Positions 3,695 through 29,243 of a stretch of DNA of 64,000 nucleotides are shown one piece after another. The DNA is taken from positions 28,059 to 92,058 of the IMG/VR virus record IMGVR_UViG_3300046781_000054; one strand, given 5' to 3'. Each line of letters starts with the position of its first letter. The first letter of the stretch is position 1. Position numbers and translations under genes: made by a program. Under the pieces are notes generated by a model. The model had not been told where the DNA came from, did no database searches, and was given only the letters and a program-made list of their open reading frames with translations. The stretch comes from a virus.

Positions 3695-4383
3695 GTCGTG
3701 TCCCCCGCTGCGAAAGGGCCGGCTGACGCGTGGTGTGAGTGGGATGATCCGGGCGCTGGTCGGGGCGCCGGAGTCGTTCCTTCCGTCCATCGGTGGGACG
3801 GGTTCGGCTGAGGGCATGGGGCGTCTCCGCTCCTCTGGCAGGGAGTGGGAAGGGTCCTCGTCACGCCGGTGTCGCAGGTCACCGGCCCCTTTCTCGCGGG
3901 CGCGGCTGCCAGTCCACACGCGCGAGGCTGCCACTGTGGCAGGAGAGGGGCCTGGCTCGGTAGACGCATCGGCGTTTTCACACCGAATCGTTGGCCAAAG
4001 GTGGCGGCTTTCGGCCTTGGCTGCTATCAGCCGGGGTGGTGACGGTGTGTCACACGCGGAAGGGTGCGGCCCGGGTGCGGGCGGCGGGGGCGGGCATGCC
4101 CGTCCGATGACGGGGATTGTAGGCCGGGACGCCGCCACGGGGGAAGGGGTGTGCCGTGGTGCACCAGCCCGGGGTCCGGGGGCTGGTGGGGCGCCGGGCT
4201 GCGAGGCCCGTGGGGGTCCCGGCGCCCCGCACCGCGGGGCCCGCGCGGCCACCCGCACGGCCCGTCTAGGGCATCGTAGATATATGCATGTTGGAAGCCT
4301 TGGGCAACGGATTCACTCCTCTGGGTGACTCATAAACCCTGTCAATAAGCGGGTTTTCGACTGGAGTTGACCGGAAACGAAAA
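3695..4383. other. Structured non-coding region beyond the par terminator
   Basis: I see no convincing gene in these 689 bases. The region holds nested symmetries: GTGAC-N5-GTCAC (4039-4053), CACCAGCCC-N9-GGGCTGGTG (4162-4188), GGCGCCGGG...CCCGGCGCC (4190-4226). An unusually AT-rich patch for this molecule (GTAGATATATGCATG, near 4275-4289) follows. It could carry a promoter for the 96-aa gene, a structured RNA or an origin/transfer site. None of these is proved by the sequence. Confidence 0.4.
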
Positions 4384-4429
4384 GAGGGCCCCGCTCCCCC
4401 ACCGGCTGGTGGTTCAGAGCGGGGCCCTC
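4384..4429 (-). terminator. Terminator of the parAB operon
   Basis: A perfect 13-bp stem, GAGGGCCCCGCTC with GAGCGGGGCCCTC, encloses a 20-base loop that has its own small CCACC/GGTGG hairpin. On the minus strand it is followed by TTTTCG. It begins 17 bases after the parB stop. Confidence 0.85.
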
Positions 4430-4445: not shown

Positions 4446-5546
4446 CTAGGAGACCGTGGTGAGGAGTTCCTTGAGTTGTTCGTCGTTGCGCTCCGCGGCC
4501 TGCTTGAACAGGTAGGAGAGCAGCGTGAAGAACTCCGGGTCGGCAACACGTTCCCGAATCAGCCGTGCCACATACCCGGGCTGATCCCATGGGACGGGCC
4601 GAGCGTTCTGCTCCGCGGTCGTCTGCTCCTCAATCTCTGGAGCAGACGACAGCTCTTGCCCCTCCGCGTCCGGGGCAGGATGCTCGGTCCGCTGCTCGGG
4701 AAGCCCCTCCCCTGCTCCGCCAGCCGCTGCGGCGCCCGCGTTCAAAACGGCGTTTTGAACAGCACCGGCCCCCGCGTCGGGTTCCGACGCAGGCGCGGGG
4801 GACTCGGTCTTCAAAACGGCGTTTTGAGAAGCTGCCTTCTTACGAGGCTTCGGCGTCTTCGCCGCCGCCTTGATCGCCTCAACCTGGGCGCGCTGCTCCT
4901 CAGGCTTCTTGGATGCCAGACCGCGGACCTGACTCGGCTTGACCGCGCCGGCCTCCAGCTCGGCCCTCACCTCGTCGTCGAGCTTGAGGAGAGCGAGCCG
5001 GTGCGAGACGTACATCTGCGTCTTGCCGATGCGTCGTCCGACCTCTTCCTGGCTGCCGTGCTTCTCCACCATCCGCTTCAGGAACTCGGCCTCCTTGATG
5101 GGGTCGATCTGCTTGCGGTGGATGTTCTCGATGATGACGGCGTCGTCGAGCTGGTCGTCTTCGCCGAGCCGGTCCTGGACGCGGATGTCGATGCGGGTCC
5201 AGCCGAGCTGGCGGGCGGCTGCCAGGCGGCGGTTGCCGGTAACGACGATCCAGTCGGCGCCCTCAACAGCCTTGGCGAGCTCGGGCTTGGACATCACGTA
5301 GCGGGCGTGGGAGACGACCGCGAGCGGTTGCAGCTGTCCGACCTCGCGCATGGTGTCCATGAGTTCGGCGAACTCAGGGTCCGCGTCGGTGTAGTCGTCG
5401 GCCAGACGGGGGTTCTCCGGGTTGCCGGTGATGGTGTGCATGAGCACGGTGGTCGGCGGTGCGACCGGCTTGTCGTCCGGTGTAGCGGTGGTTGCCTTGT
5501 CGTCCTTGCCGAGCAGGCTTGTGAAGCTCTTTTGCCTGTTGGACAT
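4446..5546 (-). CDS. parB: ParB partition protein with embedded parS-like sites
   Basis: 366 aa. An N-terminal ParB/Spo0J nuclease-fold (about 40-160) contains ENPR at 45-48 and WIVVTGNRRLAAARQLGW (GNRR type ParB signature). A central HTH (EEVGRRIGKTQMYVSHRLALLKL, about 165-190) should bind parS. A low-complexity linker (220-320) holds two QNAVL segments, which are exactly where the palindrome TTCAAAACGGCGTTTTGAA is read as codons. The C terminus (330-366) is a helical dimer region. The start overlaps the parA stop by one base (TGATG). ParB should load on parS and act with ParA in plasmid segregation. Confidence 0.93.
   Translation of the reverse strand: MSNRQKSFTSLLGKDDKATTATPDDKPVAPPTTVLMHTITGNPENPRLADDYTDADPEFAELMDTMREVGQLQPLAVVSHARYVMSKPELAKAVEGADWIVVTGNRRLAAARQLGWTRIDIRVQDRLGEDDQLDDAVIIENIHRKQIDPIKEAEFLKRMVEKHGSQEEVGRRIGKTQMYVSHRLALLKLDDEVRAELEAGAVKPSQVRGLASKKPEEQRAQVEAIKAAAKTPKPRKKAASQNAVLKTESPAPASEPDAGAGAVQNAVLNAGAAAAGGAGEGLPEQRTEHPAPDAEGQELSSAPEIEEQTTAEQNARPVPWDQPGYVARLIRERVADPEFFTLLSYLFKQAAERNDEQLKELLTTVS
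4741..4759. other. parS-like palindrome 1 (inside parB)
   Basis: TTCAAAACG-G-CGTTTTGAA, a perfect 9-bp inverted repeat with one central base, inside the coding sequence of the ParB linker. It is identical, on the opposite strand, to the copy at 6404-6422. It is far more AT-rich than the surrounding DNA. Confidence 0.8.
4810..4828. other. parS-like palindrome 2 (inside parB)
   Basis: TTCAAAACGGCGTTTTGAG, the same palindrome with one terminal mismatch, 51 bases from the first. It also encodes QNAVL in the same reading frame of the ParB linker. Confidence 0.8.
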
Positions 5547-6277
5547 CAGCGGCCCTTCCTTCCGGCGCCGATCTCCAGGGCGAGCTTGTAGAAGTCCTCG
5601 CGGGCTTCCATCGCTACTCGGTTCTTCTTGTAGCGGGTGACGACGAGACCTTCGACCGCCGCCCTCGTGTGGATCTTGTAGTGTCGGATGACGGTCTTGG
5701 CGAGGTTCCAGCCGTTGCCGAGAACGTACGCTCTGGTGTCTTCAAGGTCTGCCGTGCCGTCGCGGGGGTCCCAGTTGTTGATGACGACCCAGTACTGCTT
5801 GCCGAGGGGGCGGACGACCTGCTCGATGGTGTCGCGGGTGGGGATGAAGCCGAGCGGCTCGGGTTCGATGGGGACGATGATGTCGTCGGCGACTGTGAGC
5901 ACGGCGCGCATGGCGTCGGCGGCGGCGCTCTTGCCGAACGGGTCGCCTGCTTGCTCTTGTTCGTCCTCGGGGAGGTCCATCCACCCGGGGGTGTCGATGA
6001 ACGCGTGCTTGATCTTCTTGGACTTCTTCAGCTCGGGGAAGAAGTCGAGGTCCTTGCGTGTCTTGGTCTGCACGAACGAGAACGGCAGGTCGTCGCCTAC
6101 CTGCTCGGACCACCACGTGGCCGACCCCTGCGGGTCGCTGGATACCGCGACGACGTAGTCGGGGTCGTCGGCGGGGGACTCGCCGAGCACTTCGGCGGTG
6201 GTGGCGGATGTGTTCACGGTGAGGGTCGACTTGCCGACCCCGCCCTTGCGGTTAACGACCGCAGTGATGCGTGCCAT
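5546..6277 (-). CDS. parA: ParA-type partition ATPase
   Basis: 243 aa. Start ATG at 6277 (MARITAVVNRKGGVGKST) with GGAG upstream; the 24 extra codons upstream lack support. The deviant Walker A KGGVGKST is at residues 10-17, a SSDPQGSATWW switch region near 46, and FIDTPGW (Walker B-like) near 91. There is no N-terminal HTH, so this is a short ParA of the type Ib/Soj size class. It should form the ATP-dependent gradient that moves ParB-parS complexes. It is the penultimate gene of the replication/partition operon and is coupled to parB. Confidence 0.93.
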   Translation of the reverse strand: MARITAVVNRKGGVGKSTLTVNTSATTAEVLGESPADDPDYVVAVSSDPQGSATWWSEQVGDDLPFSFVQTKTRKDLDFFPELKKSKKIKHAFIDTPGWMDLPEDEQEQAGDPFGKSAAADAMRAVLTVADDIIVPIEPEPLGFIPTRDTIEQVVRPLGKQYWVVINNWDPRDGTADLEDTRAYVLGNGWNLAKTVIRHYKIHTRAAVEGLVVTRYKKNRVAMEAREDFYKLALEIGAGRKGR

Positions 6278-6403
6278 GGGTTGTTGCTCCGTAGGTTCCG
6301 TATGATTCCCGGCCCTTTGTGAGGCCGGTACTTCGGACCGGGACAGCATGGCACGGCAGGCAGGGGAGGGACTGGACGGGGCACGGTGCGTCGCTCATGC
6401 GGG

Positions 6404-6422
6404 TTCAAAACGCCGTTTTGAA
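6404..6422. other. parS-like palindrome 3 (upstream of parA)
   Basis: TTCAAAACGCCGTTTTGAA lies one base beyond the stop of the 57-aa gene and 127 bases before the parA start. It is the exact reverse complement of the copy at 4741. ParB binding here could also control parAB transcription. Confidence 0.8.
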
Positions 6423-6836: not shown

Positions 6837-7619
6837 TCAGGCGACGTCGAAGGCGCGTCGTGCGGGAGCCGGCCCGTTCTTCTCCTCGCCGCGCTTGAAC
6901 GCGAGGGCGGCCTGGCGGGCGCGTTCGCTCTCCTTGTGGCGTTGGGCCGCCTCGTCGGGTGTCTCCAGCTGGCGGACGGTGGTGTCGCCGGGTAGACGGT
7001 GGGCGCGCAGGGCGGCGTCCTGGCGGGCGATCGCGGCGATGAGGTAGGGGTCGGTGGGTCCGTGTTCGGGCCGGTGGTCGAGGTGGGCCTGGAGGGCGTG
7101 CTGGTAGCCGGGTGAGGCGGTCGCGCGGGTCTTCGGTTCCGGCAGAACCGGTGCCGCTGCCGAGACGTCGGGCCGCTCGTCCGCTGCGGGCGTGGCGCCT
7201 GGCGGGAGGATCCGCAGAGCGCGGACCACGCTCTGCCCGGTCTTCTCCCAGATTCGGGCGAGGATCTGCCGCTGGAACATCCGTAGCTGTGTCGCGTACG
7301 CGGCGGAGAGGGGCTGCAGGTACAGGATGCCGGTGTCGTGGGTGAAGCGGGTCGCGTACACCTTGTCTGCAAGCTCGGGGGCGATCTGCGGCCACTGGTC
7401 GAGGATGCTGCCGCCTTCCTCGGGTGGTTCCCAGCCGCGTTCGTCCATCATCTGTCCGATGACTGCGGACAGGCCTTGCGGGTCGCGGCGGCCGGTGCGC
7501 TGCACGGTCTTCCGGGTGGGCTTCTTCGCCTTGGTGGTCGGCTGGGTTTTTGCGTGGGCGCGGGCGGCGGCGAGTGCGGCGCGGGCCAGGTCGGCGCCGG
7601 AGGGTGTGGGTTCGCTCAT
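6837..7619 (-). CDS. dciA: DciA-like helicase loader (DUF721)
   Basis: 260 aa. Residues 46-140 match the DUF721/DciA pattern of the Streptomyces chromosome as I know it: GRRDPQGLSAVIGQMMDERGW, then DQWPQIAPELADKVYATRF and LYLQPLSAAYATQLRMFQRQILARI. A basic, disordered N terminus (LARAALAAARAHAK) is also typical, and a 120-residue C-terminal extension is not. DciA interacts with the replicative helicase DnaB in bacteria lacking DnaC. Start ATG at 7619 overlaps the stop of the HTH replication gene by four bases, so initiator and loader are made together. I infer recruitment of host DnaB to the plasmid origin. Confidence 0.85.
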   Translation of the reverse strand: MSEPTPSGADLARAALAAARAHAKTQPTTKAKKPTRKTVQRTGRRDPQGLSAVIGQMMDERGWEPPEEGGSILDQWPQIAPELADKVYATRFTHDTGILYLQPLSAAYATQLRMFQRQILARIWEKTGQSVVRALRILPPGATPAADERPDVSAAAPVLPEPKTRATASPGYQHALQAHLDHRPEHGPTDPYLIAAIARQDAALRAHRLPGDTTVRQLETPDEAAQRHKESERARQAALAFKRGEEKNGPAPARRAFDVA

Positions 7620-8848
7620 GCAGGGCTCCCGTTGAGGAAGGCGAGGATGTCGGCCTCGGCGCCCGACTCGCTGCTGGCGGCGTCGGGGGTGTGGTTGAGG
7701 TTGTCCCAGCCTCGCGCCCGGCACGTGGCCTCGTAGGCGGCCTCTCCCTGCCGCAGCGCGGCCATGAGGTCGAGTCGGACACCGACGGGGGCAGTGAACG
7801 CGCCGGCGGCCGGGTTCTCCAGCTCAAACCGTTCGGCAGCAGCGGCCTGCAGGTCGGCGTGCTTCTGCTGGGCCTCGAGGGCGGTGGAGATGTAGGCGGC
7901 AGGGTTGCGGGGCCGCCAGTTGCCGCCGGGGTGCATTCCGTGGAGGTATTCGGCGATGCCGTACGCGTCGAGGCCGCGGTCGATGAGCGGCCGCAGCGCG
8001 AAGGCGAGTCGGCGCAGGCCCTCCGTCTGGGTCCAGTTCACCAGGGGCCTCACCTGCCGGGCGACCGTCACGTCCTTGGCGACCTGGAGGGGGCTGCGCC
8101 TCCCGCTGCTGCGGTTCTTCTTCGACGACTGGGTGGGGGACTGGCTGCTGCGCGCCGCCTGCGGGGTGTAGTTGCTCTTTTCCCCACCCTCTACCTTCAG
8201 CTTTCCCTCTTCTCTAACCAGGGTGAGGGAAGGGGTGACACGGCCCCCATCGGCACCCGAGTTATCCACAGGGGTCGTTTGGGCCGGGATCCGGGGTCGC
8301 TGGTCGACGATGATGCGGGCCTCGTAGCCCTCACCGACGACCTGGTGCCCCATCGCGTGGTCGTACACGGGCGGGGTGACCGCCCCGTACACGGTGGCGG
8401 TGCCTGCGTAGCCGCCCAGGCCGAGCGTGCGGCGGATGTTGGCGCGGGTGCCGTGCTCGACCCACACGAGGGCCCCGAGCTCGCGGAGGTAGGCGATGTG
8501 GCGCTGCAACTGGCGCAGGGACAGGCCGAGTCGGGCGGCGGTGTCGTGCTGGGCGTAGCGGACATGCCCGGTGTCGTAGTCCATGCGGTCGGCGAGGTCG
8601 TGGGCGACGCGTTGCGTGGTGGCGTTCGCGCGGGGGTGCAGGCCGGCTGCGATCAGCCATTCCACCGCGCGACGCCACCGCCGCGGGCCGCTGCGGCGCG
8701 ACTTGGTGGCGTGCACCTCCTGGCAGGCGCCGCGCACGAGAGCGACCTGACCTGCACTGTAATAGATCTTCTGTTCGAATTCGATGTTGGGGGCGTGTGT
8801 GTCGTAAGGGGGTTTGGTGCACTGGGTGTCACCCGGGCGCGGGAACAT
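7616..8848 (-). CDS. HTH replication-initiator candidate (Rep)
   Basis: 410 aa from ATG at 8848; no clear ribosome site, and the frame is open further upstream. Residues about 55-135 form an HTH region (HDTAARLGLSLRQLQRHIAYLRELGALVWVEHG) typical of Streptomyces plasmid proteins annotated as HTH or replication proteins. A Ser/Lys-rich linker (210-250) precedes a C-terminal domain with LRRLAFALRPLIDRGLDAYGIAEYLHGMHP. Its position, coupled to a DciA homologue and followed by parAB, argues for the initiator. No Rep endonuclease or primase motif is visible. The first 30 codons are AT-rich for this molecule. Confidence 0.7.
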   Translation of the reverse strand: MFPRPGDTQCTKPPYDTHAPNIEFEQKIYYSAGQVALVRGACQEVHATKSRRSGPRRWRRAVEWLIAAGLHPRANATTQRVAHDLADRMDYDTGHVRYAQHDTAARLGLSLRQLQRHIAYLRELGALVWVEHGTRANIRRTLGLGGYAGTATVYGAVTPPVYDHAMGHQVVGEGYEARIIVDQRPRIPAQTTPVDNSGADGGRVTPSLTLVREEGKLKVEGGEKSNYTPQAARSSQSPTQSSKKNRSSGRRSPLQVAKDVTVARQVRPLVNWTQTEGLRRLAFALRPLIDRGLDAYGIAEYLHGMHPGGNWRPRNPAAYISTALEAQQKHADLQAAAAERFELENPAAGAFTAPVGVRLDLMAALRQGEAAYEATCRARGWDNLNHTPDAASSESGAEADILAFLNGSPA

Positions 8849-27857: not shown

Positions 27858-29243
27858 TCAGACCTTCGGGATCTTCAGAGCGGCCCACGTTTTGGGGCCC
27901 GGGATGCCGTCGGCGTCGCCCTTGAGGTCGGCGCGGGACAGTTGGAACGCGCGGACGGCGGCCTTGTCGGCATTGGTCCAGTTCGGCCCCGGGCCGGTCT
28001 TATAGCTCTGACCGAAGCCGAGCGCGACGAGGCGGCGGCCCATCGCGGTGACGATCGGCGAGTAGCGGCCACCGTGGAAGAACGCGGCACCGGGGAACGG
28101 CTCGTAGGCGGGCGCGGCCGTCGCGGACAGCTTCAGGACCTGCCCGACCTTGATCTCGTCGGCGTCCTTCAGACCGTTCGCGGAGACGAGCTTGGCGACG
28201 GTCGTGCCGTGGGCCTTGGCGATGCTGGTGAGCGTGTCGCCCTTCTTCACCGTGTACGTGCCCGTGCTGCTGCTCGTGCCGCCGCTGGACGCCTGAGTCG
28301 TCAGGTGGGCCAGGCGGCCGAGGACGTCCGCCGCATAGTCCCCGCCTGTGGTCACCGAATCCGGCGACTTCCCCGCCTTGATGGCGTCCTTCACACCGGT
28401 GAGGCCCGCGTTGTACGCGGCGACCGCCGGCCCCCAGCCGCCGAGCGCCTTGTAGTTGGCGGCGAGGAGCGTCGCGGCGTCCTCGGCCTGCTGACGCACG
28501 TTCTGGTCGTAGCCGTCGGGGATCGTCCACCAGCGGTCGTCGCGCTGCCAGACACCGTGCCCGTGGCCGCCGTCACCGACCTTGTTGGTCAGGTTCGTCT
28601 CCCGGGAGCCGACCGCGATCAGCAGGTTCGCGGGCAGGCCGTGGGTCTTCTCCACGGTGGGGATGAACGACCAGGTTTTCAGGGCGACGGTCTGCTGCTT
28701 GAGCATGGTGGCGGCCGTCTCGCGGGACTTCGGAACGATGCTGGAGCCTCCGACGAGCGCCTTGGCGCGCTTCACGATCTCCGGGAGCTGGGCCACGATC
28801 TTCGGGCCGGGGCATGCAGTGTGGCCACCCCAGTCGGCACCGCCCATGGCGTGGTAGCCGAGGCCCTTACCGCTGGGCGACTTGGCGACCTGCAGCGGCA
28901 CGTCGTGCACCTTGTGCGCCCAGGCGAGGACCTGCGCGTTGCGGTCGAGCTGTGCGTCGGTGAGGGTGTCGCCGCCCTTGCCCTCGTTCTCCACCGACAG
29001 CCAGGTCCGATTGCCACTGGACTGCGCCCACGCGCGATCGGCCGTGCTCACCCACTGGTAGAGCAGGCCGGTCTTGCCGGTGCCGAAGTGGGATGACGCC
29101 TGCGCCTTCGGGTTGCGGAACCAGGAGTCCGTGCCTGCCAGCGTGCCCGCCATGATGTGGACGACGACGCCGCGGACTTCCTGCTGGCCGCCCTTGGTGC
29201 AGTTCGGGACGGGACGGTACGTCGCCCCAGACATGAGCGCCAT
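27858..29243 (-). CDS. Endolysin: amidase + lysozyme-like + LysM + PG-binding
   Basis: 461 aa in four parts. (1) An amidase_2-type domain (about 8-165) has zinc-ligand His29 in VVVHIM and HTACPG with His141. (2) A lysozyme-like domain (about 175-290) has Glu215 in VGSRETNLTN as acid candidate and GGHGHGVWQRDDRWW. (3) LysM (329-372), TYTVKKGDTLTSIAKAHG. (4) A C-terminal peptidoglycan-binding domain (about 392-460; FQLSRADLKGDADGIPGPKTWAAL). Two cutting domains on one lysin fit actinophages, whose hosts have thick walls. The start overlaps the previous gene by one base. Confidence 0.92.
   Translation of the reverse strand: MALMSGATYRPVPNCTKGGQQEVRGVVVHIMAGTLAGTDSWFRNPKAQASSHFGTGKTGLLYQWVSTADRAWAQSSGNRTWLSVENEGKGGDTLTDAQLDRNAQVLAWAHKVHDVPLQVAKSPSGKGLGYHAMGGADWGGHTACPGPKIVAQLPEIVKRAKALVGGSSIVPKSRETAATMLKQQTVALKTWSFIPTVEKTHGLPANLLIAVGSRETNLTNKVGDGGHGHGVWQRDDRWWTIPDGYDQNVRQQAEDAATLLAANYKALGGWGPAVAAYNAGLTGVKDAIKAGKSPDSVTTGGDYAADVLGRLAHLTTQASSGGTSSSTGTYTVKKGDTLTSIAKAHGTTVAKLVSANGLKDADEIKVGQVLKLSATAAPAYEPFPGAAFFHGGRYSPIVTAMGRRLVALGFGQSYKTGPGPNWTNADKAAVRAFQLSRADLKGDADGIPGPKTWAALKIPKV

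Follow-up and report, generated by a model that had tools for sequence, protein, structure and literature searches.

Introduction

Three characterised Streptomyces partition systems carry a centromere inside the gene of the centromere-binding protein. In SCP2, parS is located within the coding sequence of ParT and is bound by this protein (PMC12260392). In SCP1, parB1 and parB2 each possess an internal parS, and binding by the protein was established by ChIP-seq and BLI. The ChIP-seq summits of ParB1 and ParB2 were at inverted repeats around each operon, one of them inside each parB, and spreading extended over 15-20 kb. The SCP1 authors considered that the lost in-gene parS1 site may explain a partial complementation (PMC13245405 for all SCP1 data).

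Here we analysed a stretch of 64,000 nucleotides from a viral record (IMG/VR IMGVR_UViG_3300046781_000054, positions 28,059 to 92,058), referred to as the window. By sequence comparison we show the presence and conservation of palindromes at its parAB operon, their confinement to this locus, a constraint which acts at the level of DNA, and a matching type of site inside and outside of parB. The palindromes are in all probability (about 0.9) parS centromeres of the element's own ParABS system, carried in the disordered linker of ParB.

Results

Palindromes at the parAB operon

The whole 92-kb record was scanned for the palindrome TTCAAAACG-N-CGTTTTGAA. Three sites were found, two within parB and one upstream of parA. 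The locus has the following features:

4380..4429, minus strand: putative parAB terminator, a 13-bp perfect inverted repeat followed by TTTT, just past the parB stop
4446..5546, minus strand: parB, 366 aa, with a ParB_N CTPase-type domain, HTH_ParB, a disordered linker and C-terminal helices
4741..4759, no strand: in-gene parS-like palindrome 1, TTCAAAACGGCGTTTTGAA, exact; ParB residues 264-268, QNAVL
4810..4828, no strand: in-gene parS-like palindrome 2, TTCAAAACGGCGTTTTGAG, outermost (last) base mismatched; ParB residues 241-245, QNAVL
5546..6280, minus strand: parA, 244 aa, Walker-type ATPase without N-terminal HTH
6281..6360, minus strand: putative promoter- or leader-like block between parS and parA, CATGCTGT..GGTCCG..AGTACCGG..GGCCGGGAA..CATACGGA, conserved in the upstream alignment
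6404..6422, no strand: upstream parS-like palindrome, TTCAAAACGCCGTTTTGAA, exact; ~124 bp before the parA start

The original prediction of three identical copies was correct with respect to the positions, but not to identity, since the site at 4810-4828 deviates in its last base. It also stated that no other copy was noticed in the window and that the internal copies are QNAVL codons in the ParB linker. Both statements held: beyond the three par sites no further copy of the 15-bp core CAAAACNNNGTTTTG was present in the 92,058 bases of the record, and the in-gene reading is TCT/GTT CAA AAC GCC GTT TTG AAG/AAC, i.e. S/V-QNAVL-K/N. By chance, 0.01 palindromes with up to three mismatches are expected in the 64-kb window, and three matches were obtained in none of 100 shuffled sequences. 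When parB was resampled synonymously with the record's own codon usage, at least one core arose in 10 of 20,000 trials, and two cores in none.

The parB product matched HTH_ParB (2.8e-13) and ParB_N (1.4e-6) in Pfam as well as TIGR00180, all above cut-off; a KorB domain was matched weakly. Its relatives in the PDB are Noc, Spo0J, ParB and KorB. Chromosomal ParBs have the CTP motifs GERR and ENLQR; at these positions the window ParB carries GNRR and ENIHR. SCP1 ParBs with diverged pockets remain CTPases (PMC13245405). ParA matched AAA_31 (2.8e-7) and CbiA (3.4e-7), both above cut-off. The genes are adjacent and overlap. The parA start at 6280 was favoured over an ATG at 6349 because the stretch in between constitutes the conserved leader- or promoter-like block. 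The inverted repeat with its TTTT is likely the terminator of the parAB transcript. Of the features of a type I HTH-ParB ParABS system, the locus has a Walker-type ParA, a ParB with ParB_N and HTH domains, and repeated palindromes at the operon. An AlphaFold2 model, calculated from three sequences and of low overall confidence, gave ParB residues 237-315 a pLDDT below 50 and hardly any secondary structure; helices resumed at residues 310-365. Both in-gene sites fall in this predicted disordered linker, an assignment which carries the low confidence of the model.

The virion genes of the window occupy 27045-53400 and code for endolysin, tail fibre, tape measure, major capsid protein, portal and the large terminase subunit. 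The capsid-terminase block was covered to 93% by ZL12 (pZL12, GQ919031) at 69% identity. At least 44 plasmid records, mostly from Streptomyces, matched this block, the best matches being 85-94 kb in size. ZL12 is cited as an extrachromosomal phage (PMC7157519). The virion genes together with the ZL12 and plasmid matches identify the record, as judged from its gene content, as a ZL12-like Streptomyces phage-plasmid of ~92 kb, with parAB as its probable plasmid-maintenance module. A gene for a DciA-like protein (helicase-loader family) is located upstream of parA at 6837-7724. In several related elements, plasmids as well as phage-plasmids, parAB also has such a gene beside it (L005, L006, L007, L208, L210).

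Distribution of the sites in close relatives

Relatives of this parB were collected by blastn against plasmids and by a pattern search of 393 Streptomyces genomes. This yielded 24 loci including the window; they are partly redundant, since a few of them represent the same, or nearly the same, strain in both of two collections. At 90% core identity 15 are left. A wider scan of genome contigs was left out of the counts; the matches listed there were mostly unrelated genomes with single chance matches.

All 24 loci have the palindrome at parAB. Upstream of parA most contain one copy, sometimes several ~48 or 61 bp apart, 100-130 bp before the gene. In an alignment of 11 relatives the upstream palindrome was the only long invariant block in the diverged distal upstream region. 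The sites were almost exclusively at parAB in 13 plasmids and two genomes. The palindrome occurred in 11 of the 393 Streptomyces genomes, the backwards pattern in none. The copy number is 3-12 in many relatives, and some of these copies are several kb away from parAB. These data support the view that the sites behave like the parS of their own ParB, being confined to parAB, conserved, and placed both within parB and ahead of parA. In L191 (71-505) and L194 (8728-8927) the parS-like sites of upstream arrays recur regularly every ~61 bp (and 48 bp), suggesting a preferred helical or structural spacing.

The palindromes might be ParB operators only, i.e. the upstream copy would repress the parA promoter and the internal copies would be roadblocks, none of them a centromere. 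KorB-type ParBs can act as repressors, and the window ParB has the weak KorB match and an upstream copy just ahead of the conserved promoter-like block. However, operators do not account well for the relatives with 3-12 copies, some of them remote from parAB, and no other repeated palindrome was seen at the locus as a candidate centromere. In addition, the equivalent in-gene sites of SCP1 are ChIP summits of the partition protein (PMC13245405). We consider a pure operator function very unlikely; operator and centromere roles are compatible.

Constraints on the in-gene copies

The 15-bp core CAAAAC-NNN-GTTTTG was found within the parB linker in 23 of the 24 loci, altogether in 31 copies. All 31 share a single frame, CAA AAC NNN GTT TTG, which reads QN[P/A/G]VL. 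The palindrome in parB and the QNAV-type linker peptide, which the original prediction expected to be kept in close relatives, are thus retained with one exception. CAA, GTT and TTG were used in 31 of 31 sites; elsewhere in the same genes they account for 12%, 12% and 5% of their synonymous sets. Linker identity, with the sites excluded, was 34% compared to 73% in the ParB core. The exception is L186. Its linker is of the PAPAPA type and lacks QNxVL; a dozen sites are located outside of parB instead. The lack of the peptide in L186, the invariant codons and the diverged linker indicate that the peptide follows the DNA site. QNxVL itself appears dispensable, judging from these comparisons.

The centre of the palindrome is G-N-C at every site, in and outside of parB, in the window and in its nearest relative NBC_01471 (ParB core 79%). 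The other relatives have C-N-G, except that L186, L194 and L195 each have a single site with a mixed G/G centre outside parB. Apart from these three sites, no replicon mixes centre types. Among the C-N-G loci, all 26 in-gene sites had CCG (Pro) as the free centre codon and none had CGG (Arg), whereas outside of parB 36 sites had CCG and 21 CGG (Fisher p = 1e-4). The protein apparently influences only the codon that is not set by the palindrome; common ancestry of the in-gene copies may account for part of the CCG bias. The original proposal that the DNA site fixes the protein sequence applies to the residues dictated by the palindrome; at the free centre codon it has to be qualified by a preference at the protein level. 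Many ParB columns separate users of G-N-C from users of C-N-G, in a comparison with two closely related G-N-C members only, and no single HTH residue explains the difference. E168 of the window ParB (K or R in the others) was considered as a specificity residue in the HTH and failed in other classes.

Other Streptomyces parB loci

A survey of 91 Streptomyces genomes resulted in 50 plasmid-type and 10 chromosomal parB loci, which are partly interrelated and overlap with the first set. A palindrome common to parB and the rest of the locus was detected de novo in 34 of the 50 plasmid-type loci, always at a relative gene position of 0.54-0.88, and class patterns, drawn from the same data and used with one mismatch allowed, had in-gene copies in 39 of 50 with 11 classes; as some of the ParBs behind the survey profile (A3) themselves carry in-gene sites, these figures may overestimate the share among plasmid ParBs. 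The same de novo search was negative in all of 200 codon-shuffled loci. Control windows elsewhere in the survey loci had shared palindromes in 38 of 188 cases, with upstream parS arrays as the likely source. In 6 of the 10 chromosomal loci this method retrieved the established parS, either GTTTCACGTGAAAC itself or a sequence close to it, at a relative position of 0.05-0.09. The original view that centromeres in the gene of their own binding protein are uncommon does not hold for Streptomyces plasmids: they are in the majority there (34-39 of 50), in addition to the published SCP2 ParT, SCP1 ParB1 and SCP1 ParB2.

A further de novo search, in more distant loci, uncovered GATAACGNCGTTATC, NATTACGNCGTAATN, NTTAACCNGGTTAAN and GTATACCGCGGTATAC within parB linkers. 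TATCACGGCGTGATA and GTTTACCGCGGTAAAC are present in parB of two other ZL12-like phage-plasmids, and GATAACCNGGTTATC is located directly past the parB stop in Pseudonocardia plasmids. Among ZL12-like phage-plasmids, parAB is associated with at least five classes of palindrome: G-N-C in the window, C-N-G in IMG/VR record 2930430511, GATAAC in CP107743, TATCAC in NZ_CP109172 and TTTACCGCGG in ZL12. In the parB linker of L264 (G027:C4, 3725-4168) an exact 39-bp (13-codon) unit, read LSRRDSSGSG.., is repeated 12 times in tandem and in frame, every unit with a copy of TATCACGGCGTGATA; three more copies are upstream. A putative centromere array is thereby encoded as repetitive protein sequence. The sister ParBs L242, L252, L259 and L261 have ATTACGNCGTAAT palindromes only outside of parB. 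They may represent losses that occurred naturally, or else the ancestral state.

The TATCACGNCGTGATA class is read as YHAVI or YHGVI in some parB genes and as LSRRD in others, i.e. in two frames with different peptides, so the constraint acts on the DNA. This bears on the possibility that QNAVL/QNPVL is a functional peptide repeat, e.g. a ParA- or self-contact motif, with the palindrome as a by-product of its codons. The single frame in this parB family would conform to it, and the uniform CCG in 26 in-gene C-N-G sites points to some protein-level preference. Yet a peptide motif explains neither the same palindrome in upstream non-coding DNA nor the invariant use of rare synonymous codons, L186 manages without it, and the peptides of the TATCAC class are unrelated. 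We regard it as very improbable. Least credible is binding of the sites by another phage-plasmid protein, as replication iterons or as operator of a lysogeny repressor: DciA-like and HTH genes do lie beside parA, but the palindrome class goes with ParB even in replicons where the neighbours differ, and where a ZL12-like phage-plasmid has another ParB, the palindrome at parAB is another one as well.

Discussion

If the palindromes are the parS sites of the element's own ParABS system, a ParB dimer would be expected to bind the 15-bp core CAAAACGNCGTTTTG via its HTH. By analogy with SCP1, ParB would be loaded in the form of a CTP-type clamp that slides along the par region, and ParA would move the loaded ParB, resulting in segregation of the ~92-kb element. 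ParB may also autoregulate its own gene. The sites can sit in the linker-coding stretch of parB because the linker tolerates almost any peptide. As they lie in the gene, a recombined or transferred parB would always bring along a site which it recognises. Placement in the gene would thus couple specificity and site as one transferable piece, a possible benefit of linkage in cis.

We also favour, with considerably more reserve, a general reading. In Streptomyces plasmids and phage-plasmids the centromere may well, as a rule, lie in frame within the part of the cognate parB that encodes the disordered linker, with about eleven specificities and up to 12 tandem copies. ParB and site would then be a self-contained unit, the specificity of which can move or switch as a whole, and new incompatibility groups could arise simply in this way. 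Three isolated published cases would turn into a testable pattern, genes of centromere-binding proteins which carry their own centromere. Matching pairs of ParB and parS can be read from the sequences of these loci, a natural series in which the diversification of partition specificity and plasmid incompatibility can be followed. On the practical side, a cloned or ectopic parB from such plasmids would bring active centromeres with it, and these would be lost on codon optimisation. The open papers that were searched contained no report of the site sequence of the window and no statement of a general rule, of co-varying site classes or of a tandem in-frame array.

How does the locus compare with known systems? 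Chromosomal ParABS systems share the ParB fold and a palindromic parS near parAB. They differ in the parS sequence, GTTTCACGTGAAAC, and the Streptomyces copy near parB is at its 5' end, not in the linker. Bacillus subtilis has a parS in spo0J, which was not used as evidence here. The closest ParAB is that of the 554-kb linear plasmid of Streptomyces sp. NBC_01471 (NZ_CP109451), with the same G-N-C palindrome. It has three sites in parB, two upstream of parA and three more 2.4 kb further on. The latter are exact palindromes (L004, 7046-7189), ~400 bp upstream of a second ParA-family gene. Unlike the window, this plasmid is large and linear, and it lacks the window's terminase gene. ZL12 is of the same phage-plasmid type, and its palindrome is present once in parB and once ahead of parA; this palindrome, GTTTACCGCGGTAAAC, is unrelated to that of the window, however, and the ParB is divergent.

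SCP2 ParA-ParT-parS is likewise from a Streptomyces plasmid and has an 18-bp inverted repeat parS in the gene of the centromere-binding protein (PMC12260392). ParT is CTP-independent and its palindrome of even length, whereas the window protein has ParB_N and HTH_ParB and the site is of odd length. Similar in organisation are ParABS1 and ParABS2 of SCP1 from Streptomyces coelicolor, both type I HTH-ParB systems with several inverted-repeat parS around parAB, one inside parB. In its dimensions, 19 bp for the repeat and 15 bp for the core, SCP1 parS2 agrees with the window site (PMC13245405). In contrast to SCP1, the window has two in-gene copies and is a phage-plasmid. With its predicted sites the window shares parS-like sequences in the gene of the own binding protein with SCP2 ParT and SCP1 ParB1 and ParB2, and it is a probable further case of the in-gene parS known from these three Streptomyces systems.
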